This document shows, one piece after another, positions 2,038-20,405 of a stretch of DNA of 64,000 nucleotides (positions are counted from its first letter, which is position 1; every line of letters starts with the position of its first letter). Origin of the DNA: an uncultured Eubacteriales bacterium. Its GTDB lineage: Bacteria; Bacillota; Clostridia; Lachnospirales; Lachnospiraceae. A program made the translations under genes and the position numbers. Location of the stretch: positions 18,300-82,299 of the forward strand of contig CASDTX010000063.1 in NCBI GenBank assembly GCA_949283695.1. The letters are read 5' to 3'. The notes beneath the pieces were generated by a model. That model saw only the letters and a list, made by a program, of their open reading frames with translations. It made no database searches and had not been told where the DNA came from.

Positions 2038-3549
2038 ATGAAAAGAACTGTAAAACGGCTGATGGCAGCAGCGCTTATGCTGACGTCTGTACTGACATCT
2101 GCTTACACGGCGTATGCGGATGATACTGAGGATGGAACGCTGACGTACGAGGAGGCGCTGCAGGCATCTTATGATATAATACCAGATACGAATCAGATCG
2201 AGGGCTGGCCCCAGGGCCCCCAGGTGTACGGCAATTCCGCGATTGTGATGGATATGGACAGCGGGGCTGTCCTGTATGAGAAGAAGGCTGACGACAGGCA
2301 TTATCCGGCCAGTATTACGAAGATTCTTACAGCGCTGGTGGCGCTGGAGAACTCCCAGCCGGAGGATGAGGTGTACTTTTCGGATGACAGTGTTTCTTTC
2401 CTGGAATACGGCGATGCCAGTATCGGCATGCGGCCGGGGGAGATCCTGACCAGAAAGGACGCCATGTACGGGATGCTTCTGGCTTCGGCCAATGAGGTAT
2501 CCTATGCCATTGCCGAGAACGTGGGAAAAGAAATGGACGGCGATTATCAGACGTTTATTCAGGCCATGAACGACCGGGCGCAGGAGCTGGGCTGTACAGG
2601 ATCGCACTGGGTGAATGCCAACGGACTGCATGACGAGCAGCATTATACGACGGCCCGGGACATGGCGCTGATCGCGTCAGCGGTGTATCAGTTTGAAGAA
2701 TTCCGCACGGTTACGCAGACCTTGGAATACACGATCGGGACCACCAATCTTGTGAACGAGACGAGAACATTCCAGCAGAATCATAAGATGCTCTGGCCGG
2801 GAAGCTATTACTATTATGAATCCTGTACCGGGGGGAAAACCGGATATACGGACCAGTCACGGACCACCCTTGTCACGATGGCCGAGAACAACGGCCTTCG
2901 GCTCGCGGCAGTGATTCTCCAGGATGACGGGGATGTGTATATAGATACCCGGGCGATGTTCGATTATGCATACAGCAGTTTTACGAAGACGCTGTTAAGT
3001 GATCAGGAGAAGCCGGACGAGGTTCTCACCTACGACGATGCAGATGCTTATGTGCTGCTTCCCGCCGGCGTGGAGTTCTCTTCTCTGGAGAGTGAGATCA
3101 CGGTGACGGACGAGAAGAAGGCAGAAGGCACGGTTACTTATTATTATGAAGGGCAGAATGTAGGCAGTGCGGATGTCACACTGACAGAGGAGGCTCTTGC
3201 AGGAAAAGCAGAGGACGCCCAGACCCCGCAGTCTGACGCCGCGGACGGCACCGCGCAGAAGGCGGAGAAGGACCCGCAGCAGGAAACAGCGGCAATCCTG
3301 ACCCGGATGCTGACCTGTGCGGGCGTGGCGATTTTCGTTTTGATTGTGTTCCTGCTCATGCTTCTCAGGTATCGGATTGTAAAGCAGAGACGAAGACGGA
3401 TGGCTATGGCGAGACGGAGACAGCGGATTCAGAATTCCGGGAGGAGTGCTGACTGGCGAAGCGAAAGACCTGCCGGAACGCAGAGGCGGCAGATGAGATC
3501 CGGCAGAGAAGAGCGCGGAGTCCGGGACCGGAACGGACGGTATCGGTAA
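2038..3549 (+). CDS. D-alanyl-D-alanine carboxypeptidase (PBP5/DacF family, peptidase S11)
   Basis: A 503-residue exported penicillin-binding protein. An N-terminal signal peptide (about residues 1-27, basic then hydrophobic, ending near AYA) is followed by the S11 domain with all three active-site motifs: SITK at 92-95 (acylated Ser), SAN at 150-152 and KTG at 267-269. A C-terminal hydrophobic segment (about 420-445) followed by a very Arg-rich tail suggests a membrane anchor with a cytoplasmic basic end. The enzyme trims the terminal D-Ala from peptidoglycan stem peptides outside the membrane. Strong RBS GGAGG and a good promoter sit upstream. The ~60-residue basic tail is longer than the usual amphipathic PBP5 anchor. 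Whether its role is vegetative or sporulation-linked (DacF/DacB-like) cannot be decided from sequence. Confidence 0.9.
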   Translation: MKRTVKRLMAAALMLTSVLTSAYTAYADDTEDGTLTYEEALQASYDIIPDTNQIEGWPQGPQVYGNSAIVMDMDSGAVLYEKKADDRHYPASITKILTALVALENSQPEDEVYFSDDSVSFLEYGDASIGMRPGEILTRKDAMYGMLLASANEVSYAIAENVGKEMDGDYQTFIQAMNDRAQELGCTGSHWVNANGLHDEQHYTTARDMALIASAVYQFEEFRTVTQTLEYTIGTTNLVNETRTFQQNHKMLWPGSYYYYESCTGGKTGYTDQSRTTLVTMAENNGLRLAAVILQDDGDVYIDTRAMFDYAYSSFTKTLLSDQEKPDEVLTYDDADAYVLLPAGVEFSSLESEITVTDEKKAEGTVTYYYEGQNVGSADVTLTEEALAGKAEDAQTPQSDAADGTAQKAEKDPQQETAAILTRMLTCAGVAIFVLIVFLLMLLRYRIVKQRRRRMAMARRRQRIQNSGRSADWRSERPAGTQRRQMRSGREERGVRDRNGRYR

Positions 3550-3552
3550 TCC

Positions 3553-4785
3553 ATGCCGGAATCCGGAGGCGAGGTGGCGGAAATAGAAGATCGGACTTAT
3601 TTTTTAAAACATATCGCAGAGCTTCTGCACACAGGGATTATCACGGAACAAGAGGGCAGGATCACGTCCTATGAGGAGAATCCTCAGTATAATCCGCTCT
3701 GCAGGAACGAAGCTCTGCGCAGGCGTCTGAGAGAGACGGCAGATTCTATGGAACTGCCTGTGATTATCAAAGACGATTATGAAGTTTATTTTGTGTGTAT
3801 CCGCATGGGAGCGGACGAATACTGTATGGCCGGCCCCATGGCGGCTGTGGGGATGAACCGGGTAGAGAGACACCGGTTCTACCACGCATACGGCATCGAA
3901 GAGCGATGGGAGAAAGGGCTGCATTACCGGCCGGTGATGGATGTCTTCCTCACCGCGGGAATGCTGGCAGAACGGCTCACCGGCAGGACCTATACGGAGC
4001 GCTGTCTTGTGGAGGCGAACCGGCTGTCCGCGATATCGGAAGATGAGGAGAAGAATGCCCGGGCAAGATTCGAGATCAAGGAAGAGGACGCAGACATATA
4101 CCGCCACAGTTATCAGGAGGAGCGGCGGCTGCTGGATATGGTGCGGGAAGGAAATGTGGAAGAGGCGGTCCGGATCTCGAAGCAGATGGACCCGGAGATC
4201 GGCAGGCTGGGGAAGCGCGAAATCGAGCACTGGCGCAATGTCCTTGTCATAGCGGCTACCCTGTGCGCGCGGGCGGCCATTGAGGGCGGAGTGATGCCGT
4301 ATGTAGCCTACCGGGTCAGCGGCTTCTACATTAACAAAGGATCGGAGTGCACGAATGCGACGGAGATCCTTACCTATCGGAATCATGCGGTTGAGGAACT
4401 GGCGCGCCGGGTCAGAGAAGCGCGGACGAAACGGCATACATCCAGCTACACGGAGCAGTGCAGGGATTATGTCCAGAAGCATTACCGGGAGAAGATCTAT
4501 CTGGAAGAGATTGCGGAAAGTCTCGGGATCAGTGTCAGTTATCTATCCCGGCTGTTTCGGAAGGAGACGGGGATGCGGTTCCAGGACTATGTGACAGAGG
4601 TCCGGATCGAGCGCGCGGCCAATCTTCTCATTTATTCAGAAGAGTCCCTTCCCAGGATCGCGGAGTATGTGAATTTTCCGTCCCAGAGTTATTTCGGAAA
4701 GGTGTTTAAAGAGAAGAAGCACATGACCCCGCGGCAGTACAGAGAGATGTATAAACCATTGGAATTTTATGAGAAAAAGGAATAG
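3553..4785 (+). CDS. AraC-family transcriptional regulator
   Basis: A 410-residue protein with a C-terminal double helix-turn-helix (about residues 305-405). The first recognition unit is IYLEEIAESLGISVSYLSRL, and the family's P-x-x-Y-R end appears as TPRQYREMYK. The N-terminal 300 residues are mixed alpha/beta and resemble sensory domains of AraC regulators in carbohydrate loci; the ligand is unknown. The start is uncertain. ATG 3553 lies 3 bp after the previous stop with no good ribosome-binding site, while GTG 3574 has GGAGG very close upstream. The gene ends in a perfect-stem terminator, and the glycosidase operon begins right after it, so regulation of that operon is the natural guess. 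Read-through from the carboxypeptidase gene is likely because no terminator separates them. Confidence 0.85.
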   Translation: MPESGGEVAEIEDRTYFLKHIAELLHTGIITEQEGRITSYEENPQYNPLCRNEALRRRLRETADSMELPVIIKDDYEVYFVCIRMGADEYCMAGPMAAVGMNRVERHRFYHAYGIEERWEKGLHYRPVMDVFLTAGMLAERLTGRTYTERCLVEANRLSAISEDEEKNARARFEIKEEDADIYRHSYQEERRLLDMVREGNVEEAVRISKQMDPEIGRLGKREIEHWRNVLVIAATLCARAAIEGGVMPYVAYRVSGFYINKGSECTNATEILTYRNHAVEELARRVREARTKRHTSSYTEQCRDYVQKHYREKIYLEEIAESLGISVSYLSRLFRKETGMRFQDYVTEVRIERAANLLIYSEESLPRIAEYVNFPSQSYFGKVFKEKKHMTPRQYREMYKPLEFYEKKE

Positions 4786-4841
4786 AGATCAATATCATGT
4801 CATAAATGTCAAAATAACGATATGATATTGATCTCTTTTTT
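4784..4841 (+). terminator. Strong rho-independent terminator after araC-type gene
   Basis: A perfect 15-bp stem (4784-4798 with 4822-4836) is followed by six T. The left arm overlaps the stop codon. It also shows that the in-frame ATG at 4822 cannot be the start of the downstream glycosidase gene, since that codon lies in the right arm of the stem. Confidence 0.9.
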
Positions 4842-4902
4842 GATAGCATTGGAAACAGATCAGCCAGACAGAAATCGTTCAATGAATGGAGGAGTGGAAG
4901 CC

Positions 4903-7212
4903 ATGCAGGATTATAGGAAGGACACAGAATGGATATGGGATCCCCAGTGGAGCGCGCAGGATAAGGAACGTGCATGCATCGTACTGTTCCGCAGGACCGC
5001 GGAGCTGATGTCAGATCCGGCGGCGGGAATGATCCGCATCTCGGCGGATACCCGATATAAACTGTACGTGAATGAACGACTGATCGAGGTGGGGCCGAGC
5101 AGAGGAGACCGTCAGATCTGGTTCTGCGATACCATCGATCTCTGCCCTTATTTAAAGAAGGGGAAAAACATCATCGCGGTCCGTGTGCTCCGGTATCCGG
5201 AGGATCCGTCCGCGGGCAATCACGGCATGTTCCGCACGCCGGTGCCCGGCCTCTATGTGAAAGGAGCAATCACGGATACAGATGGAACGGTCTGTGATCT
5301 TACGGCAAATGGGGAATGGCGGTGCAGAAAGGATGAAAATATCTCTTTCTGCCGGGAGGAAGAGCGGTTCGCGCCTCTGATCGTCCACGAGCGCGCTGCG
5401 GGCAGTCCGGAGCTGTTTGGCTGGCTCTCGGAGGAGTACGATGACAGCGGGTGGAGACCGGCCAGACCGTATCTGAGAATGCAGGTACCCGAGGCCGTGA
5501 GTCCGGGCAATCTGACTCCCCGCAGCATTCCGTTTCTCTACCGGAAGAAGGGACAGCTGGAACATGTGATGGAGATCCGCCGGTCCTGCCATGGCGAAGG
5601 GGACTGGCTGGCCTTTCTAACAAGGGAGAAGGCGCTTGTCATCCCGGCGCATACGGAAGAGACTGTGGTCTTCCATGCCGGTGTGGAGAAGACGGCATAC
5701 ATCCGGGCAGAAGTTTCCGGCGGAGCGGACGCGCAGATGAATCTGCTATATTCCGAGGCCTATGTTCAGGACAGGTTCGAGGGACCGGAGCGCATTCCGG
5801 TGAAGAAAGACCGCATGGATCAGGAGAACGGGCATCTGCAGGGATATGAGGACTTCTATACTGTCGGCGGGTTCGGCACGGAAGAAAGGCCGGAAGTATA
5901 CGAGCCATATTGGTTCCGTACCTTCCGCTTCCTGCGGCTTCAGATCCGGACGAAGGAGGAACCGCTGACGCTGCGGCGGCTGGATTATGAAGAGACGGGG
6001 TATCCGCTGCAGACAGAGACCTGTGTGGAAACTTCGGATCAGAGCCTGAAGAATATCTGGGAAATCAGCGAGCGTACCCTGCGGCTGTGTATGCACGAGA
6101 CTTACGAGGACTGCCCATTCTATGAACAGCTTCAGTATATTATGGATTCCAGGACGCAGATCCTCTATACCTACGCGGTCAGCGCGGATGACAGGCTGGC
6201 GAGGAAATGCATGGATGACCTGAGAAGATCTCAGAGATACGACGGACTTCTGAACTGCTCTTATCCGAACTGCAATCCCAATGTGATACCGGGATTTTCC
6301 ATCTACTATATTCTCATGATCTATGATCACATGATGTATTTCGGAGACCGGGAGCTTGTGGCGGATCATCTGCCGGCGGTGGAACAGATCCTTCATTTCT
6401 TCGGGCGTCATCTGACGAAAGAAGGATATGTGGAGAAGGTGGGCGGCATAAATATGAACGCCAGATTCTGGTCCTTTATCGACTGGGCAAAGGAGTGGAA
6501 TGACACCAGCGGAATGCCCGCAGCTGGTCTGAAAGGGCCGATTACCATGGAAAGTCTCCTCTATATCTACGGACTGCAGCACGCGGCGAAGCTGATGGAC
6601 TATCTGGGAAGAAGCGAGGATGCGAAAGGACTCACAAAACGTGCCCAGGATGTCCAGGCAGCAGTCCGGCAATACTGCGTGGGAAACAGCGGCATGATTC
6701 AGGACGGACCGGGCGTTGATGAGTACAGCCAGCACTGCCAGGTGTTCGCCTTGCTCACAGATACGGTGGATCTGGAGCAGGGGCGCAGAAATCTTCTGGC
6801 GACGATCGAAGAGGACGGCTATACACAGTGTACTGTGGCCATGCGTTTCTATCTGTTCCGGGCGCTGGAAAAAGCCGGTCTCTATGAATATACAGATCAA
6901 TACTGGGAGACCTGGCGGAATATGATTGCCAGACGCTGCACCACCTGCGTGGAGGCAGAGGCGTATGCCAGAAGCGAATGCCACGGGTGGGGAGCATTGA
7001 TTCTCTACGAGCTGCCAACCATTACCCTGGGCGTACGTCCGGCAGCACCGGGCTATCAGAAGGTCAGAATCGCGCCGGTTCCCGGCTATCTGACCTCTGC
7101 CGCCGGGAAGGTAATAACACCGGTGGGAGAAGTGAAGGTATCATGGAAGATCGAGAACGGTGCCTTCAGAATGGACTATGAAGTTCCTCAGAATATCGAA
7201 GTAGTCAGATAA
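4903..7212 (+). CDS. GH78-like (alpha-L-rhamnosidase-related) six-hairpin glycosidase
   Basis: About 769 residues from ATG 4903, chosen because GGAGGAG sits 8 nt upstream and the longer frame begins inside a terminator. An N-terminal beta-sandwich region (SADTRYKLYVNERLIEVGPS-type carbohydrate-binding fold) and a central beta domain precede an (alpha/alpha)6 barrel and a short C-terminal beta domain ending in 'GYQKVRIAPVPGYL'-type sequence. That architecture is the one seen in GH78. The canonical rhamnosidase catalytic block DCPxRExxGW is replaced here by EDCPFYEQLQYIMDSRTQ, as in a divergent subgroup, so the exact sugar is uncertain. There is no signal peptide, so it probably acts on imported glycosides. 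It heads the operon with another glycosidase, an esterase, a sugar symporter and an ene-reductase. Confidence 0.75.
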   Translation: MQDYRKDTEWIWDPQWSAQDKERACIVLFRRTAELMSDPAAGMIRISADTRYKLYVNERLIEVGPSRGDRQIWFCDTIDLCPYLKKGKNIIAVRVLRYPEDPSAGNHGMFRTPVPGLYVKGAITDTDGTVCDLTANGEWRCRKDENISFCREEERFAPLIVHERAAGSPELFGWLSEEYDDSGWRPARPYLRMQVPEAVSPGNLTPRSIPFLYRKKGQLEHVMEIRRSCHGEGDWLAFLTREKALVIPAHTEETVVFHAGVEKTAYIRAEVSGGADAQMNLLYSEAYVQDRFEGPERIPVKKDRMDQENGHLQGYEDFYTVGGFGTEERPEVYEPYWFRTFRFLRLQIRTKEEPLTLRRLDYEETGYPLQTETCVETSDQSLKNIWEISERTLRLCMHETYEDCPFYEQLQYIMDSRTQILYTYAVSADDRLARKCMDDLRRSQRYDGLLNCSYPNCNPNVIPGFSIYYILMIYDHMMYFGDRELVADHLPAVEQILHFFGRHLTKEGYVEKVGGINMNARFWSFIDWAKEWNDTSGMPAAGLKGPITMESLLYIYGLQHAAKLMDYLGRSEDAKGLTKRAQDVQAAVRQYCVGNSGMIQDGPGVDEYSQHCQVFALLTDTVDLEQGRRNLLATIEEDGYTQCTVAMRFYLFRALEKAGLYEYTDQYWETWRNMIARRCTTCVEAEAYARSECHGWGALILYELPTITLGVRPAAPGYQKVRIAPVPGYLTSAAGKVITPVGEVKVSWKIENGAFRMDYEVPQNIEVVR

Positions 7213-15267: not shown

Positions 15268-16158
15268 CTATTTAACTTTAGTAGCATTGTCAGTTTCGAT
15301 CTTATTCGGAACATTTTTCGATTTTTGATGCGCCGTATCATACCATTTCAGGAAATCCCCGAAAAGCTTTTCTTCCGCTTCGGCTCTGGCTTCCGCCGCA
15401 TCGTCAATCTGGTCATAGCCGCCCAGGTAATAGCATTTTTGCTGAAACATAATCTGGGCGATCCATTTATGGCGTTTCTTGCTGTAGTAAACGCCCCGCA
15501 CTCCGCTGGTATTTGTTTTATACATAATGCCAGGCTGAATCATCTCCACGCAGGTGCCGTTTTCATAGTGAAGATTATTTTGGGGCTGACGCAGGCATCC
15601 GCAGCTTCTTGTCCATCCGTTCTGCAGGTGAGACTGGCGTACATCCAGTTCCTTTCCACAGTCGCATTTGCAGTGCCAGAAATGGAATCCGTTCTCTTTG
15701 CGGGCATAAGACAGTACCGTCAATGCGCCGAAACGTTTCCCTATCCAGTCTTTTAAAGGCGGCTTTTTCCCACAGCCGCAGCTTCTCACTCCGCCGGTAA
15801 TCAGTCTTCGTTTTGTCGTCTCGATTTCCTTCCCGCACTCACATTGGCAGAGCCAGAGAGGATTGCCGTCCCTGGCTTTATTCCCGGAGCGGCCTTTGAC
15901 CAACAGTTTCCCAAATTGATGTCCCGTTAAATCTTTGATTCCATCATAGGGAGAGGGTTCGCAGCCGCAGCTGAAAATGGCGCCCGGCTTTAACCGGCGG
16001 CTTTCCACGAACAGTTCCTCTCCGCATTCACAGCGGCAGCGCCATACCACGGCATCCCGCACACGCTGGTCTGTAGGCTCCAATACAGTCAGTTTTCCAA
16101 AACGTTGTCCGGTAAGATCTTTTCCTTTCAAAACCTCACCCCCATCAACATCTGGCAT
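15268..16158 (-). CDS. Three zinc-ribbon repeats plus AP2-type DNA-binding domain
   Basis: A 296-residue protein with three tandem units of about 60 residues. Each opens with [D/W]-[L/I]-[T/G]-G-x-[R/Q]-F-G-[K/A]-L, continues with a W-x-C-x-C-x-CG knuckle and closes with S-CGC, so each carries enough Cys to bind a zinc ion. The C-terminal part (about 210-265: TSGVRGVYYSKKRHKWIAQI, then YYLGGYD) resembles the AP2/ERF beta-sheet DNA-binding domain found in bacteria in phage proteins and HNH homing endonucleases. No HNH catalytic motif is visible. It lies last in the minus-strand modification island, 24 bp after the helix-turn-helix gene. A DNA-binding or regulatory role is inferred. It could instead be a phage-derived passenger. 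Confidence 0.7.
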   Translation of the reverse strand: MPDVDGGEVLKGKDLTGQRFGKLTVLEPTDQRVRDAVVWRCRCECGEELFVESRRLKPGAIFSCGCEPSPYDGIKDLTGHQFGKLLVKGRSGNKARDGNPLWLCQCECGKEIETTKRRLITGGVRSCGCGKKPPLKDWIGKRFGALTVLSYARKENGFHFWHCKCDCGKELDVRQSHLQNGWTRSCGCLRQPQNNLHYENGTCVEMIQPGIMYKTNTSGVRGVYYSKKRHKWIAQIMFQQKCYYLGGYDQIDDAAEARAEAEEKLFGDFLKWYDTAHQKSKNVPNKIETDNATKVK

Positions 16159-16181
16159 TCATCATCGAAAAAGAAAACATC

Positions 16182-16550
16182 TTAAATATTTTTACTGTTA
16201 GTATTTCTATATTCTCGCAGCCGGCGGTAGAAGGTGGCTTCCGCCATGCCGCTTCGCCGCAGCGCTTCTTTTGTAGTGATGGCCTTATTCTCCAGTGCGT
16301 TTACAATGTCCGGAAAATCGTCCGGCGGCTCCACTCTCGGCCGTCCGAATTTCACGCCTTTGGCCTTTGCCGCTGCGATCCCATCCATCTGGCGCTGGTA
16401 ATCTCTGCCTTTATAATCACTCGGATCAATTCCGGCCTCATGCAGCCACACTGTTACAATGTGAACATCCGTTTCCAGGATATCGGCGATTTTTTTTGCC
16501 GTCATTCCTGTCTTTCCCAGGTTATGGGCAATGGTTTCGATCTCTGTCAT
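16182..16550 (-). CDS. Small HTH protein with serine-resolvase-like C-terminal tail
   Basis: A 122-residue protein. The first ~45 residues look like a helix-turn-helix (MTAKKIADILETDVHIVTVW). From about residue 55 it reads like the end of a serine recombinase: a helix with GIAAAKAKGVKFGRPR, then the terminal HTH ending SGMAEATFYRRLREY. The catalytic resolvase domain (Ser nucleophile and Arg cluster) is absent. It is therefore probably a DNA-binding regulator built from resolvase parts, or a stable remnant. It follows the PqqD-like gene by 49 bp in the same direction. A second protein with the same kind of tail flanks the other end of the island at 20157-20405. Confidence 0.65.
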   Translation of the reverse strand: MTEIETIAHNLGKTGMTAKKIADILETDVHIVTVWLHEAGIDPSDYKGRDYQRQMDGIAAAKAKGVKFGRPRVEPPDDFPDIVNALENKAITTKEALRRSGMAEATFYRRLREYRNTNSKNI

Positions 16551-16599
16551 AAATGATGAAATACCGTCCTTTTCCTTTTTCTTGATCTGTTTCCGGCTG

Positions 16600-16866
16600 T
16601 TACTCTTCTACGAATCCCAATAATTTCATCTCTTTGATCAGTCCTTCGACATCCGTTCTGGCAGTTTCTTCCTCCACATCAAAATGCTCTAATACAAGCC
16701 TGACCATTTCTTCTGTATCAGTTACTTCGTCGATATGCTCCCAAATAAAGACTGCCGTCCGATTAGGCGAAAATAACCCGTTAAAATTTTTCGTAGCCTC
16801 TCCGGCCGGAACGAGAATTGATTCCCCGGCGACTTTTCGGAGGATAAAATTTTTATTTCTTTTCAT
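16600..16866 (-). CDS. PqqD-like peptide-modification chaperone (RRE domain)
   Basis: An 88-residue protein matching the PqqD fold: an N-terminal strand pair (FILRKVAGESILVPAGEA), a central AVFIWEHID segment, then helices ending EMKLLGFVEE. PqqD-like domains bind leader segments of precursor peptides and present them to radical SAM or other tailoring enzymes. The gene lies 33 bp downstream of the HPr-kinase-like gene and shares its direction. A second PqqD-like protein (19515-19937) belongs to the same island, so the pair may handle different substrates or steps. The family call rests on motif and length; the partner assignment is inferred from position. Confidence 0.8.
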   Translation of the reverse strand: MKRNKNFILRKVAGESILVPAGEATKNFNGLFSPNRTAVFIWEHIDEVTDTEEMVRLVLEHFDVEEETARTDVEGLIKEMKLLGFVEE

Positions 16867-16899
16867 AATCTCTGATTTCTCCCATCTTTTTTGTGCGGA

Positions 16900-17805
16900 T
16901 CATATTCCGCTTTCTCTCATCTGCACAGACTCCAATGCAGGGCTTTCATATAAAACTTTCTCTAATGTATCTACAGCTCCCGGAGTTTTCGTGCACAGAA
17001 AGCGGTAGATCTTTATTTCATCTGATAATTCCGTGACCCAATTCAAGGTTTTTCGCACAAATGCGTCATTCCAGCTGTTCACTGTTAATTCACTGTATAT
17101 TGCGGTAAACGCTGGATGCCCGTAAATTCGTTCGGCGTGATCTTCCGGCGCCTGCCGCAGGACCACAATGGCTTTGATCGGCGCCTGCCGGTTCAGATGG
17201 ATATTGGAGGTACCGCAAAACGGCGCCCCATAAGCATGCCAGATGCCGTTTCTTTTGCGGATGATGGTACGGTCTCCGTTAATAATCTCCGCGCCTCTGT
17301 ACATCCGCCACAGATCCCCCTGTGTTGATTTTCCCGTGCCGGAGGGAGCTGTGAACAGAATCGCCTGCCCGTCTTTCTGTATATGGCAGCTGTGCAGGAC
17401 CATGGCGTCAAATCTCATCAGAAGCTTTTCAATGCAAAAAAAGTTCTCCAGATGATTTCCCCGCTCAATTTCTTCTTTCAGCCATTCCACACTCAGATAA
17501 TGGCAGACACCGCTGTCTGCTCCTAGAATGGTAACGGCATGATAATATCCATCATGGATATGAAAGCAGGCCTCCATCCCTTCTGGATCCTGATAGTAGT
17601 GGAATTTGGCGATTTCCCCGACGAAAACAGGATATTGTTCCAGAAAGGAAGGGATATTATCCGTCTGGCAGAATGTCAATGTATAATCCGGTTCACACGG
17701 CTCCACAAGGAACTCTCGCATATAACTGTTTTGTGCCGGGAAAACAAAATCAAACACCACACGCAGTACAAGATCTGCGATCCGGTAATAGGCTTCGCTG
17801 CTCAT
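16900..17805 (-). CDS. HPr-kinase-like P-loop protein
   Basis: A 301-residue protein. The P-loop is TAPSGTGKST at about residues 152-161, and an IINGDRT segment follows at about 174-180, the usual arrangement in HPr-kinase-related ATPases. The HPrK/P capture loop and the phosphorylase region are not recognised. Such proteins occur in peptide-modification clusters, including lasso-peptide loci where a homologue phosphorylates the precursor. That makes kinase activity on the island's substrate a reasonable guess. The start overlaps the stop of the radical SAM gene by 4 bp (ATGA-type), implying coupled translation. The N-terminal 130 residues are unassigned. It could instead act only as an ATP-dependent scaffold. 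Confidence 0.75.
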   Translation of the reverse strand: MSSEAYYRIADLVLRVVFDFVFPAQNSYMREFLVEPCEPDYTLTFCQTDNIPSFLEQYPVFVGEIAKFHYYQDPEGMEACFHIHDGYYHAVTILGADSGVCHYLSVEWLKEEIERGNHLENFFCIEKLLMRFDAMVLHSCHIQKDGQAILFTAPSGTGKSTQGDLWRMYRGAEIINGDRTIIRKRNGIWHAYGAPFCGTSNIHLNRQAPIKAIVVLRQAPEDHAERIYGHPAFTAIYSELTVNSWNDAFVRKTLNWVTELSDEIKIYRFLCTKTPGAVDTLEKVLYESPALESVQMRESGI

Positions 17806-18944
17806 AGGGATCCCTCCGCTTTCCTAAGCTGTGCAAGTTCCTCCTGAAGAAGGGCTGAATAATGGCGGCAGAATTCACACAGGTATTCCGGCTCCCCGTC
17901 AACCGCTCCGGTCTCACACAATGCTCCGGCGGCACAGACAGGACAGATGCCAAGATACCGGCAGGTGCTGCACTTTATAGAAAGCTGGACTTCCCGCGTA
18001 TAGCGTGATATTGCTTTCCACGCATCCGCAAAGCTTTCCGTCTCCAGGCTGTGGATATCATCGTCCGCCACACCGCAGCCAGACACTTCCCCTTTCCAGT
18101 TGATCCAGAACGCGCTGACGCCGCTGCGGCAATGCATGTGCGGATCTCCATAATGGCGGTGGTTTTCCGGATGTTCGATATCCCTGCAGGCAGCTTCCAA
18201 AAAGTCCCGCCAGATCTTCCTGTCCCCGCCGCTTTGATCTCTGCGGTAACGCAGCGCTGTCTTTGCCATCTCTTCAGGAGTAAACCGTTCCTGCTCCACA
18301 GGTTTCTCTGCTTCTTTCCGCAGAGGCGGAAACATATAATAAGAAAGCTGCATCGGAACCTGAAACTGATTGCAGATCTCCTTCATCTTTTCATAATCGT
18401 CCATCATAGAGGGCACCAGTACTCCGTGGACACGGAACGGGATATTGTATTCCTTTAAGAGAGAAAATGCCCGTATTACCCGCTCATATCCGTCACGCCG
18501 TCCGGTTAAGCGTTCGTAAGTTTCCGGCGAAGCTCCATAAAGAGAAATATTCAAACGGCGCGGAGGCTCCTTTGCCAGCCACTCCACCGTATCGCGGTCC
18601 AGCATCGTACCATTGGTATTGAGTACGATATGGATTCCTTTTTGCTTCAGTTTCGTATACAGTGTACGAAAGCCGGGATAGGTGAAAATCTCGCCGCCTG
18701 TCAGCAGGCAAAACAGCATCCCCGCTTCTATGGCCTGATCAACCGCATTCTCCCAGAAATCGATCGACTTTAATCCGCCATGCGCAAGAACCGCCTCTTG
18801 ATTCTGACGGACGTAACACATCTTACAATCCAGGTTGCAGACGGGCGTCAGCTCAATCGTCCCCATCAAAGGCAGATTCATGGAATCTGCTTTTCGAAAT
18901 AAAAACTCATTATAGGTCTCCCGGAATTCATCGGCCATATCCAT
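17802..18944 (-). CDS. Radical SAM/SPASM peptide-modifying enzyme
   Basis: A 380-residue protein with the radical SAM cluster motif in LTPVCNLDCKMCYV (Cys at about 36, 40 and 43) and the downstream GGEIFTYPGF motif that binds SAM. The C-terminal third has a SPASM-type Cys set: HCRSG, GCGVA, then CSTCRYLGICPVC and CEFC. These can hold one or two auxiliary 4Fe-4S clusters. SPASM enzymes of this size usually install crosslinks or other changes on ribosomal peptides. Its neighbours are two PqqD-like proteins, a kinase-like protein and a Cys-rich small protein, which fits that role. The exact reaction is unknown. It is separated from the candidate substrate gene by 94 bp that contain a hairpin. 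Confidence 0.85.
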   Translation of the reverse strand: MDMADEFRETYNEFLFRKADSMNLPLMGTIELTPVCNLDCKMCYVRQNQEAVLAHGGLKSIDFWENAVDQAIEAGMLFCLLTGGEIFTYPGFRTLYTKLKQKGIHIVLNTNGTMLDRDTVEWLAKEPPRRLNISLYGASPETYERLTGRRDGYERVIRAFSLLKEYNIPFRVHGVLVPSMMDDYEKMKEICNQFQVPMQLSYYMFPPLRKEAEKPVEQERFTPEEMAKTALRYRRDQSGGDRKIWRDFLEAACRDIEHPENHRHYGDPHMHCRSGVSAFWINWKGEVSGCGVADDDIHSLETESFADAWKAISRYTREVQLSIKCSTCRYLGICPVCAAGALCETGAVDGEPEYLCEFCRHYSALLQEELAQLRKAEGSL

Positions 18945-18982
18945 ATCACTTCACACCCTTTCCGCATCATGCATAAGACAAC

Positions 18983-19013
18983 AAAAGGAAGGCAGTCGGA
19001 CCACCCTCCTTTT
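18983..19013 (-). other. Hairpin between candidate substrate gene and radical SAM gene
   Basis: On the minus strand, AAAAGGA pairs with TCCTTTT and the stem continues through G-C and wobble pairs. Only a weak T-tract follows (TTTTGTTGTC), so partial termination is likely. That would give more substrate mRNA than enzyme mRNA. Confidence 0.5.
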
Positions 19014-19038
19014 CATTGCTTAATTTCCATATAATCTA

Positions 19039-19518
19039 TTAGCTTCCTACATTTACTTCTTCAATACTTGTACCGTATAAAGGTGCAATCTGAACATGAT
19101 AGTTTGTGCCGCCGCCATGACCACCATGACCGCCGCCAAAACCGTTGCTATGATTTGTCGTATGTGTAAGCACGCCATTCTCCACACTAAAGCAACTTGT
19201 GCCACCAGCTGAACAGTAGTAGAGCAGTCCAATCGCACCAGATGGGGCGGTATATGTACGATTTCCTCCCGAGCTTCCCCATGTCCCTCCGGAATGATTA
19301 GAATGGCTAAAAGAATTCGATGCCAAGGCTTGTGTCGCGCTTGTCGTTCCTGCCACTCTGGAACAACTTGTTGTAAGTACATTTGTAGTATCAGTTTGCG
19401 GACCAATCATACAATCGAACACAATAGGTTTATCCACCTCATCACCACATGCAGCAATCGCTCTGTTAACGGTAAATTCTTCTACCATTATCATTGGGCG
19501 TTCATATACCTCTTTCAT
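19039..19518 (-). CDS. Candidate modified substrate: Cys/His/Gly-rich small protein
   Basis: A 159-residue protein that I do not recognise as an enzyme. It opens with a charged leader-like segment (MKEVYERPMIMVEEFTVNRA) followed by an AACGDE stretch. A low-complexity Ser/Thr/Asn/Gly body comes next, ending in a Gly-His stretch (FGGGHGGHGGG). Cysteines fall at about 24, 36, 52, 102 and 109, with seven histidines. The start overlaps the stop of the upstream PqqD-like gene by 4 bp, so the two are translationally coupled. The next gene downstream is the radical SAM/SPASM enzyme. A short conserved N-terminus plus a Cys/Gly-rich remainder is what a radical SAM precursor protein would look like. It has no secretion signal, and no exporter gene is nearby. 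Metal binding by the His/Cys-rich region is an alternative. Confidence 0.6.
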   Translation of the reverse strand: MKEVYERPMIMVEEFTVNRAIAACGDEVDKPIVFDCMIGPQTDTTNVLTTSCSRVAGTTSATQALASNSFSHSNHSGGTWGSSGGNRTYTAPSGAIGLLYYCSAGGTSCFSVENGVLTHTTNHSNGFGGGHGGHGGGTNYHVQIAPLYGTSIEEVNVGS

Positions 19519-19937
19519 AATTTGTTTACCTCCTCTAATATCTTACATTCCAATGCATCTGCTGCGAAGCTTTCTACTGAGCTTCGCATTTTATCTTCTG
19601 CCACACCATATTCCAGCATTCCCCGGATGACTACATCTTCCAGAGTACTGGGCTGTTCAAAACTCTTCCAGATAAAAACTGCCGAACTGTCTGGGGCCGT
19701 CACCGTGTTCTCCGGCAGGGCTTCACATTCCGTTCCGGCCGGGACAATCGCATATTCTCCGGCGATTTCCCTGATTATGTACCCCGATTTGATCCGGTAG
19801 TTCTTCTTTTCCCTTTGATAACTGTCACCGCTGAGATGTCTGGATAACTCGTCATCGGACAGCTTTGCAAGTTCGCTGCCGCTCAGTCCGCCTGGATTAC
19901 GGACAAAGTGGTATTCCGGTCTTTTATATTCTTTCAC
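19515..19937 (-). CDS. PqqD-like protein with N-terminal extension
   Basis: A 140-residue protein starting at GTG 19937 (AGAAGG upstream). Residues about 50-140 carry the PqqD/RRE fold (YIIREIAGEYAIVPAG, SSAVFIWKSFE, then helices). The first ~45 residues (KRPEYHFVRNPGGLSGSELAKL...) are an extra segment not seen in the 88-residue homologue of this island. KRPEYHFV loosely echoes the YERPMIMVEEF leader of the next gene. It is the first gene of the operon and overlaps the candidate substrate gene by 4 bp. A role as leader-binding chaperone for that substrate is inferred. Confidence 0.75.
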   Translation of the reverse strand: MKEYKRPEYHFVRNPGGLSGSELAKLSDDELSRHLSGDSYQREKKNYRIKSGYIIREIAGEYAIVPAGTECEALPENTVTAPDSSAVFIWKSFEQPSTLEDVVIRGMLEYGVAEDKMRSSVESFAADALECKILEEVNKL

Positions 19938-19984
19938 GTAACACCTTCTTTGATTTACAAGATATCTCTTATGAAGGGATACCA

Positions 19985-20153
19985 GTCAAATAGTACACTT
20001 TATGACTGTTGACGAAATCTGTTTCCATTCCTCTTCCAAATGTTGGAAAAGCAAGATTATTCTCCCAGATAAACTAAAAAAAGCTTGCGTTTCCAGGAAT
20101 CATGAAGTATAATGTTATCTGTAATTTTACTGTTATAAAGTGTACTATTTGAC
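19985..20153. repeat. Pair of 22-bp inverted repeats framing the island's promoter region
   Basis: GTCAAATAGTACACTTTATG+AC at 19985-20006 is matched in inverted orientation at 20132-20153 with one mismatch. The 125 bp between the arms are A/T-rich and noncoding, with a TTCCAA-ATG-TTGGAA palindrome at 20034-20048. They lie directly upstream of the first island gene. They could be paired operator sites for a dimeric regulator, or recombination sites. Confidence 0.75.
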
Positions 20154-20156
20154 AAT

Positions 20157-20405
20157 TTATTTTTTCGCTGTTTTGTACATCCTTGCCCTCCGGTAAAACG
20201 TGGATTCCCTCATTCCGCACCGTTTAAGGGCTTCCGGGATGTTTTTTTTCTGCTCACGGCTGGTGACACGGATAGAACCATGCGCTGCTGTCAATAGTTC
20301 CTCCTTTCCTGACGGACCAAAGGAAAAAGTTCCTGTCCGCCCCGTTCTGTGTGCCTGCTTCTCGCCGGAAAGCAAAAAAAGACAGTGCATCGTCTTCTGA
20401 CACAC
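20157..20405 (-). CDS. Short protein with resolvase-type terminal HTH; possible remnant
   Basis: An 82-residue frame from GTG 20405 with AGAAAGG upstream. The last ~25 residues (EALKRCGMRESTFYRRARMY) match the terminal HTH of serine recombinases, like the protein at 16182-16550. The N-terminal half has no recognisable domain; a FSFGPSGKEEL stretch looks like a decayed FGRPRKEL linker. It ends 4 bp before the right arm of the 22-bp inverted repeat. It may be a functional small regulator of the island or the decayed end of a recombinase gene. Confidence 0.45.
   Translation of the reverse strand: MCQKTMHCLFLLSGEKQAHRTGRTGTFSFGPSGKEELLTAAHGSIRVTSREQKKNIPEALKRCGMRESTFYRRARMYKTAKK

Follow-up and report, generated by a model that had tools for sequence, protein, structure and literature searches.

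A cluster of five genes on the minus strand (16600-19937) of a 64,000-nucleotide stretch from an uncultured Lachnospiraceae bacterium, hereafter the window (part of contig C63 of an assembly of 2.9 Mb that is 79% complete), encodes, in order of transcription, a PqqD-like protein (PqqD1), a small protein, a radical S-adenosylmethionine (SAM) enzyme with a SPASM domain, an ATPase resembling HPr kinase (HprK), and a second PqqD-like protein (PqqD2). With moderate confidence, the cluster is interpreted as a pathway of the type that matures ribosomally synthesized and post-translationally modified peptides (RiPPs), in which the PqqD-like proteins, as RiPP recognition elements (RREs), would present a leader-tagged precursor to the radical SAM/SPASM enzyme and to an HprK-like kinase acting on the terminal serine of the precursor.

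The first-pass annotation of this DNA had recognised two PqqD-like proteins, an HPr-kinase-like P-loop protein, a radical SAM/SPASM enzyme and a small protein of 159 residues rich in cysteine, histidine and glycine, had remarked that the set has no lasso cyclase, and had proposed a modification system; the analysis bears it out on each of these parts. Both PqqD proteins match PF05402 and the radical SAM enzyme matches PF04055 (Table 1), with three radical-SAM and seven SPASM cysteines in place. The best NCBIfam matches of the ATPase are HprK-related, all of them below the cut-offs (ScmC, 7.4e-6; HprK_rel_A, 1.6e-4; HprK_rel_B, 3e-3), and the small protein has no match in the family scans. PqqD2 also matches the lasso PqqD model (E 5e-7), below the cut-off of that model, and a sequence search of the PDB with the PqqD proteins gave no relevant match. 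No protease, ABC exporter, lasso cyclase, macrolactam cyclase or B2 peptidase family was matched among the eight frames scanned in the window. Overlaps of 4 bp, which had been described as several, do occur, at exactly two gene pairs (PqqD1/precursor and radical SAM/HprK).

The gene set recurs. Radical SAM and HprK genes adjoin in 32 loci (31 distinct) of the 51 examined, found within Lachnospiraceae and in some other gut bacteria; locus L040, for example, belongs to Faecalicatena contorta (NZ_JAFBIZ010000024.1). A search of genome contigs with the radical SAM protein returned eight loci, including those of Clostridium celatum, Clostridium sp., an uncultured Dorea and a single bin of Bacteroidales. 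Relatives of the HprK-like protein at E <=1e-5, distant ones counted, are present in 45 of 200 sampled genomes of the family. The distance matrices of the two proteins are correlated (r 0.77, n=30 loci, 0 of 2000 permutations as high), a result for which co-inheritance alone could suffice. The first-pass annotation had made its proposal depend on the co-occurrence of these genes; as the 31 distinct loci and the correlated distances indicate, they do co-occur, and the modification system it proposed stands as a recurring RiPP-type system that lacks a lasso cyclase. The nearest relative is L037, from a bin labelled Thomasclavelia, with 75.7% DNA identity that is confined to 16600-19531. Relative to L037, the nonsynonymous and synonymous substitution rates (dN and dS) are 0.07 and 2.1 for the radical SAM enzyme, 0.13 and 2.0 for PqqD2, 0.10 and saturated for the HprK-like protein, and 0.27 and 0.74 for the precursor: the core is under purifying selection, with conserved enzymes and a faster-evolving substrate. 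Because it recurs in other genomes and has been kept by purifying selection since divergence from L037, the gene set is more than a chance association. The radical SAM protein had no match at 1e-20 in plasmid and phage collections, and the HprK-like protein matched three weak records in the plasmid collection.

The small protein and its relatives have a common leader, K-x-[YW]-x-x-P-x-x-x-x-E-x-[FY] followed by [IV]-A-x-C, in which Pro8 and Cys24 are invariant in all 23 sequences of alignment A1. The leader of the window precursor, YERPMIMVEEFTVNRAIAAC, matches the A1 profile at E 7.7e-15 in a search of its own genome. This profile was built after the tails of the precursors were known, but tail identity played no part in choosing its sequences; three candidates not in A1, namely a 41-residue protein at L066 (not ending in serine) and those of L064 and L054 (both ending in serine), were recovered or counted later. 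The 22 strong matches (E <1e-7) come from 13 of the 200 genomes of the family, and 19 of these matches lie in HprK-bearing loci; with any match at 1e-4 accepted, the leader occurs in 5 of 295 genomes of an order sample and 3 of 398 of a phylum sample, own genome included. Twenty-four of the 31 distinct radical SAM-HprK loci have a leader precursor. The cores of related precursors are 80-160 residues long (about 135 in the window), and an AlphaFold model of the precursor from eight sequences has no confident fold (predicted local distance difference test score, pLDDT, 33). The substrate formerly suggested, an intracellular or membrane-adjacent protein, gives way to a leader/core precursor that begins with a YxxP leader and ends in serine.

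The motif [Y/W]xxPx[L/V/I/F/A] is recognised by the discrete RREs of lasso peptides, and YxxP is also read in linear polyphosphorylated peptides (LPPs), according to one report (PMC13381572). By analogy, the PqqD proteins of the window are predicted to bind the YxxP leader. Relatives of PqqD1 adjoin precursors in L037, L051, L060 and L062; the PqqD1 search profile drew in HprK sequences, and PqqD1 labels on long proteins were disregarded. The PqqD1 proteins of the window (19515-19937) and of L072 (8648-9076) begin with leader-like strings (MKEYKRPEY... and MLKKKWIEPMMTV..., respectively) before the RRE fold, as though the RRE bore a copy of the peptide that it binds.

At the other end of the precursor, serine is the last residue in 27 of the 31 leader-bearing sequences, as against 18 of 365 complete neighbouring proteins of at least 120 residues. 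Compared by BLAST at E 1e-3 with their leaders removed, the cores form 13 groups, of which 11 end wholly or mainly in serine. The binomial tail is 1.3e-31 when sequences are counted and 3.0e-13 when groups are; the former is too small because the precursors are related, and the latter is the fairer figure. Repeated sequences were counted once (L043 duplicates L042, L047 duplicates L040, and L116 and L114 share the precursors of L072 and L111). If L092 and L109, where neither a radical SAM nor an HprK gene is adjacent, and L111, where only the radical SAM gene is, are set aside, 24 of 28 end in serine. None of seven weak leader matches with no radical SAM or HprK gene within about 1.5 kb does so (L098, L100, L101, L102, L117, L118 and L119, some of which may be chance frames). 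Also outside the 31, the weak match L120, which comes from a different family of the class and has the order precursor-HprK-radical SAM, does end in serine. The genome of the window holds three systems, on C63 (the window), C46 (L062) and C23 (L072), and their precursors end in VGS, NAS and DKS, respectively. Two further proteins with strong leaders and terminal serines, L113 (G103:C20) and L115 (G032:C6), lie far from radical SAM and HprK genes in genomes that have clusters elsewhere, and are possible in-trans substrates.

A terminal serine is the target of known kinases of this kind: in one account (PMC9266682), PadeK phosphorylates the paeninodin precursor at its C-terminal serine, ThcoK and SyanK polyphosphorylate their own precursors, and PsmN transfers a hexose onto the phosphoserine of pseudomycoidin. 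Nine lasso PqqD loci above cut-off served as a control, with a W/YxxP precursor readable in the 1.5-kb flanks of six; the precursors of the paeninodin-like controls end in serine in six cases out of six. In two LPP-like controls, L139 and L140, the sequence FETLVS follows YxxP and the precursors end in aspartate, which fits a kinase acting next to the leader, where the target of the LPP kinase lies (S3; PMC13381572). At L137, where no kinase was detected, the precursor ends in valine. The L139 and L140 genes adjoin lasso-type PqqD genes; their kinases have SDE in place of DD, and their precursors read MKQYVKPMI...FETLVS... and end in GGD.

The HprK-like ATPase is probably the kinase of the C-terminal serine of the precursor, by analogy with these enzymes. 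An AlphaFold model from 37 rows (pLDDT 93) retrieved phosphoenolpyruvate carboxykinases (PEPCKs) and HPr kinases in a Foldseek search (E about 1e-6 to 1e-5, with moderate TM-scores), and the sequence profile of the ATPase aligns with Lactobacillus casei HprK across the histidine, the P-loop and the 'DD' region (E 6e-4). His138, Lys159 and Asp178 are kept in 37 of 37 rows.

Accessory genes that would complete such a pathway are found in related loci. Within 5 kb of 27 leader-precursor loci, 11 have an S24/S26 archaeal signal-peptidase-like protein, seven an NTP_transf_5-type protein, six an MsbA-like exporter, nine a large secreted protein and five Wzz/Wzc-like genes; these classes are defined by BLAST family and length, many flanks are cut by contig ends, and Pfam checks covered the peptidases of L037 and L062, one protein of the NTP-transferase class and one of the ABC class. 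The neighbouring peptidases have the motifs GxSMxP and HR[ILV], each in 16 of 18. The earlier statement that protease and exporter are missing therefore describes the window correctly and does not extend to its relatives. No signal-peptidase-like leader peptidase was found on the contig of the window, nor an F2-type exporter at 10-26 kb from the window; on C46, the HprK gene is followed directly by a gene for an S24-type protein. The large secreted proteins form one BLAST-linked family of 1000-1960 residues where complete, present in all ten loci with F4-type precursors (L038, L039, L044, L048, L049, L053, L054, L056, L057 and L061). Of six that were scanned, three have a vWA domain above cut-off and the others PA14 or GH20, and in several the C-terminus is an amphipathic, aromatic stretch (IFGRWF, for example).

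Several observations weigh against a serine-kinase RiPP pathway. Four of the 31 precursors end in other residues (L041, asparagine; L045, tryptophan; L048, threonine; L066, phenylalanine), and L045 is the closest relative after L037; outside the 31, L121, with an HprK gene nearby and no radical SAM gene within 1.5 kb, ends in lysine. In seven of the 31 distinct radical SAM-HprK loci no leader precursor was found (L052, L063, L065, L067, L073, L077 and L079). The window has neither protease nor exporter, no NTP_transf_5 protein was found in its own genome, and bacteriophage-type fragments next to the cluster hint that the locus is mobile or worn. The kinase assignment is weakest at the residue preceding Asp178, which is glycine in 36 of 37 rows (NGD in 35, IGD in one) and asparagine in one (CND), whereas the DD pair is kept in HprK and in eight of eight lasso-locus kinases, from which the adjacency of the two aspartates in the published His-Lys-Asp-Asp motif was read. 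The first aspartate of the HprK pair is the general base, and kinase activity is not assured because that aspartate is lost. Accordingly, the HprK-like protein might be something other than a serine kinase, perhaps activating the C-terminal carboxylate or transferring another group, with the terminal serine as acceptor or recognition residue. This is unlikely. In its favour, NGD has replaced DD while His138, Lys159 and Asp178 are invariant, DD is retained by the lasso-locus kinases, and PEPCK folds score equal to HprK. Against it, the terminal serine is as expected from known HprK-like kinases (PMC9266682), and the NTP-transferase and signal peptidase neighbours are those of phospho-RiPPs (PMC13381572).

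It is rather improbable that the system produces no secreted peptide and instead modifies a long-lived protein of the cell surface or envelope, which would move the first-pass reading outward. The length of the cores, the large secreted proteins of all ten F4-type loci and the nearby Wzz/Wzc-like genes point that way, but no large secreted protein accompanies the cluster in the window, L037 or L045, and the combination of leader, RRE and attenuator is the logic of a RiPP. The putative attenuator is a hairpin followed by a T-rich stretch (-22.9 kcal/mol, z -4.7), matched by a hairpin in L037 (-20.1 kcal/mol, z -5.6); it would probably yield more precursor than enzyme. A promoter scan found six candidates where 7.9 were expected.

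The radical SAM enzyme has nine of its ten motif cysteines invariant in 30 of 30 rows and the tenth, Cys272, in 29. The sole departure is in the L037 enzyme (4506-5648), where tyrosine replaces this first SPASM cysteine. In the cluster on C46 (L062, whose numbering is used here), a partial radical SAM gene (3465-3986) lies next to the precursor gene and a second, full-length one (4743-5834) follows PqqD2. By profile, the nearest solved structures are SkfB, followed by the radical SAM enzyme of 5v1q and the anaerobic sulfatase-maturating enzyme; likeness to SkfB and the 5v1q enzyme does not fix the reaction. The window enzyme resembles the maturases of sactipeptides and ranthipeptides (SkfB, AlbA) in its SPASM domain and Cys-bearing substrate, and its system differs from theirs in having separate RREs, a kinase and a YxxP leader. 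That this is an ordinary bacteriocin cluster of sactipeptide or ranthipeptide type with an incidental kinase, as these nearest structures and the cysteines at the leader junction and in the core might imply, is quite improbable: the HprK gene and the terminal serine recur jointly, all sactipeptide maturase models score the enzyme far below cut-off, and no immunity or bacteriocin-type gene was recognised in the scanned frames.

The first-pass annotation drew the island from 15268 to 20405, which is too wide. The frame at 15268-16158, immediately after the cluster, encodes zinc-ribbon-like repeats and matches phage HNH-endonuclease families of the PHROG database and an AP2 domain; 16182-16550 matches the tail of a DNA-invertase PHROG; and 20157-20405 resembles a resolvase/invertase tail by eye, with no PHROG match. 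DNA similarity to L037 is limited to 16600-19531 and leaves these outer frames out; their membership in the unit was not confirmed, and the island as drawn was rejected. Nor do inverted repeats bound the cluster, as had been stated: both 25-nucleotide arms (92% complementary, 119 nucleotides apart) lie upstream of PqqD1, and a 511-base query containing the repeat found no second copy in the genome. In L037, an integrase gene is immediately upstream of the precursor gene. That the cluster is a worn mobile fragment with no function today, as the invertase and HNH pieces, the lack of protease and exporter and the incompleteness of the metagenome-assembled genome might imply, is very improbable given five intact core frames, the low dN relative to dS of the radical SAM enzyme and PqqD2 against L037, and the hairpin retained there.

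Table 1. Features of the cluster, with positions in the window.
Feature	Position	Strand	Evidence
PqqD1, discrete RRE with N-terminal extension, GTG start	19515..19937	-	PF05402, E 2e-7
Precursor, 159 residues: leader (residues 1 to about 23), Cys24 conserved, core rich in Cys, His and Gly, Ser159 at the C-terminus	19039..19518	-	
Leader segment, residues 1-23, [Y/W]xxP RRE-binding-type motif	19450..19518	-	Alignment A1
Terminator-like hairpin, 14 pairs, between precursor and radical SAM genes	18983..19013	-	Scan and fold
Radical SAM/SPASM enzyme, 380 residues	17802..18944	-	PF04055, E 5.5e-25; CxxxCxxC and seven SPASM Cys
HprK-like ATPase, 301 residues, proposed precursor serine kinase	16900..17805	-	AlphaFold, Foldseek, profile match
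PqqD2, discrete RRE, 88 residues	16600..16866	-	PF05402, E 7e-15
Inverted repeat, arms 19985-20009 and 20129-20153	19985..20153	none	Repeat search

The nearest published kinds of system are the LPPs, reported in Nature Communications in May 2026 (PMC13381572), and the paeninodin lasso peptides. The LPP report describes a discrete RRE, an HprK-like kinase, a leader of consensus YxxPxVLxHQxIxFETxxS, precursors of 35-200 residues, a capsule-locus setting and a core set that includes an SpI-like peptidase, an NTP-transferase and an MsbA-like exporter; its text contains no mention of radical SAM, rSAM, SPASM, Lachnospir- or Clostrid-. In common with LPPs, the window has the discrete RRE and the HprK-like kinase adjoining a YxxP-leader precursor; precursor length and the capsule-locus setting are further likenesses, and its relatives, though not the window itself, have the peptidase, transferase and exporter. 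It differs in its radical SAM/SPASM enzyme, the two RREs usual in its kind, the NGD of its kinase, the absence of the HQxIxFETxxS part of the leader (YxxP alone is in common), and a conserved serine that is the last residue, where LPPs have S3 next to the leader. Like the paeninodin-type lasso peptides (PadeK/ThcoK, pseudomycoidin; PMC9266682), it combines a [Y/W]xxP leader, a discrete PqqD-like RRE, an HprK-like kinase and a C-terminal serine; unlike them, it has no lasso cyclase or B2 peptidase, possesses a radical SAM/SPASM enzyme, has a core about five times longer, and has NGD where the lasso kinases have DD. Because the accessory genes of its relatives are the LPP core set, the system of the window is best placed as a reduced member of a radical SAM-bearing branch that stands alongside the LPPs and the phosphorylated lasso peptides.

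Two assignments were rejected: a lasso peptide, since there is no cyclase, and the SynChlorMet cassette. The latter, judging from the names of its NCBIfam models (ScmC/D/E/F), also unites HprK-like, PqqD-like and radical SAM/SPASM proteins, but the window cluster has a single radical SAM gene and none of the four models comes near its cut-off (bits against cut-off: ScmC, 25.5/125; ScmD, 17.5/100; ScmE, 42.3/400; ScmF, 44.5/400). Nothing on SynChlorMet by name was found in open-licence papers of PubMed Central, and no RiPP combining radical SAM and HprK was found among the matches listed in the same open-licence text.

In the proposed pathway, one or both PqqD-fold RREs would bind the N-terminal YxxP leader and hand the core to the two enzymes. 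The radical SAM/SPASM enzyme would alter the core, a Cys-linked thioether or C-C cross-link being a guess, and the HprK-like ATPase would phosphorylate the C-terminal serine on its side chain, while the hairpin 3' of the precursor gene would hold the precursor in excess of the enzymes. In relatives, the signal-peptidase-like protease is predicted to cut off the leader, the MsbA-like exporter to transport the product, and the NTP-transferase may decorate the phosphate; in the genome of the window, a protease could act in trans from the second cluster on C46.

A bolder proposal, and a doubtful one, is that these clusters represent a new RiPP class that combines a radical cross-link with a C-terminal serine modified by an HprK-like enzyme lacking the first aspartate, and that the phosphoserine or activated C-terminus joins a surface sugar or the large secreted proteins of sister clusters, so that the products would be surface tethers and not antibiotics. 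The kinase variant without the first aspartate poses a clean enzymological question. If the proposals are correct, radical SAM chemistry and HprK-type phosphorylation would be joined on one ribosomal precursor, a YxxP leader at one end and a serine at the other would serve as a genome-mining rule for substrates missed by the family models used here, and the range of phospho-RiPPs would widen beyond Bacilli to take in gut Clostridia and a single bin of Bacteroidales.

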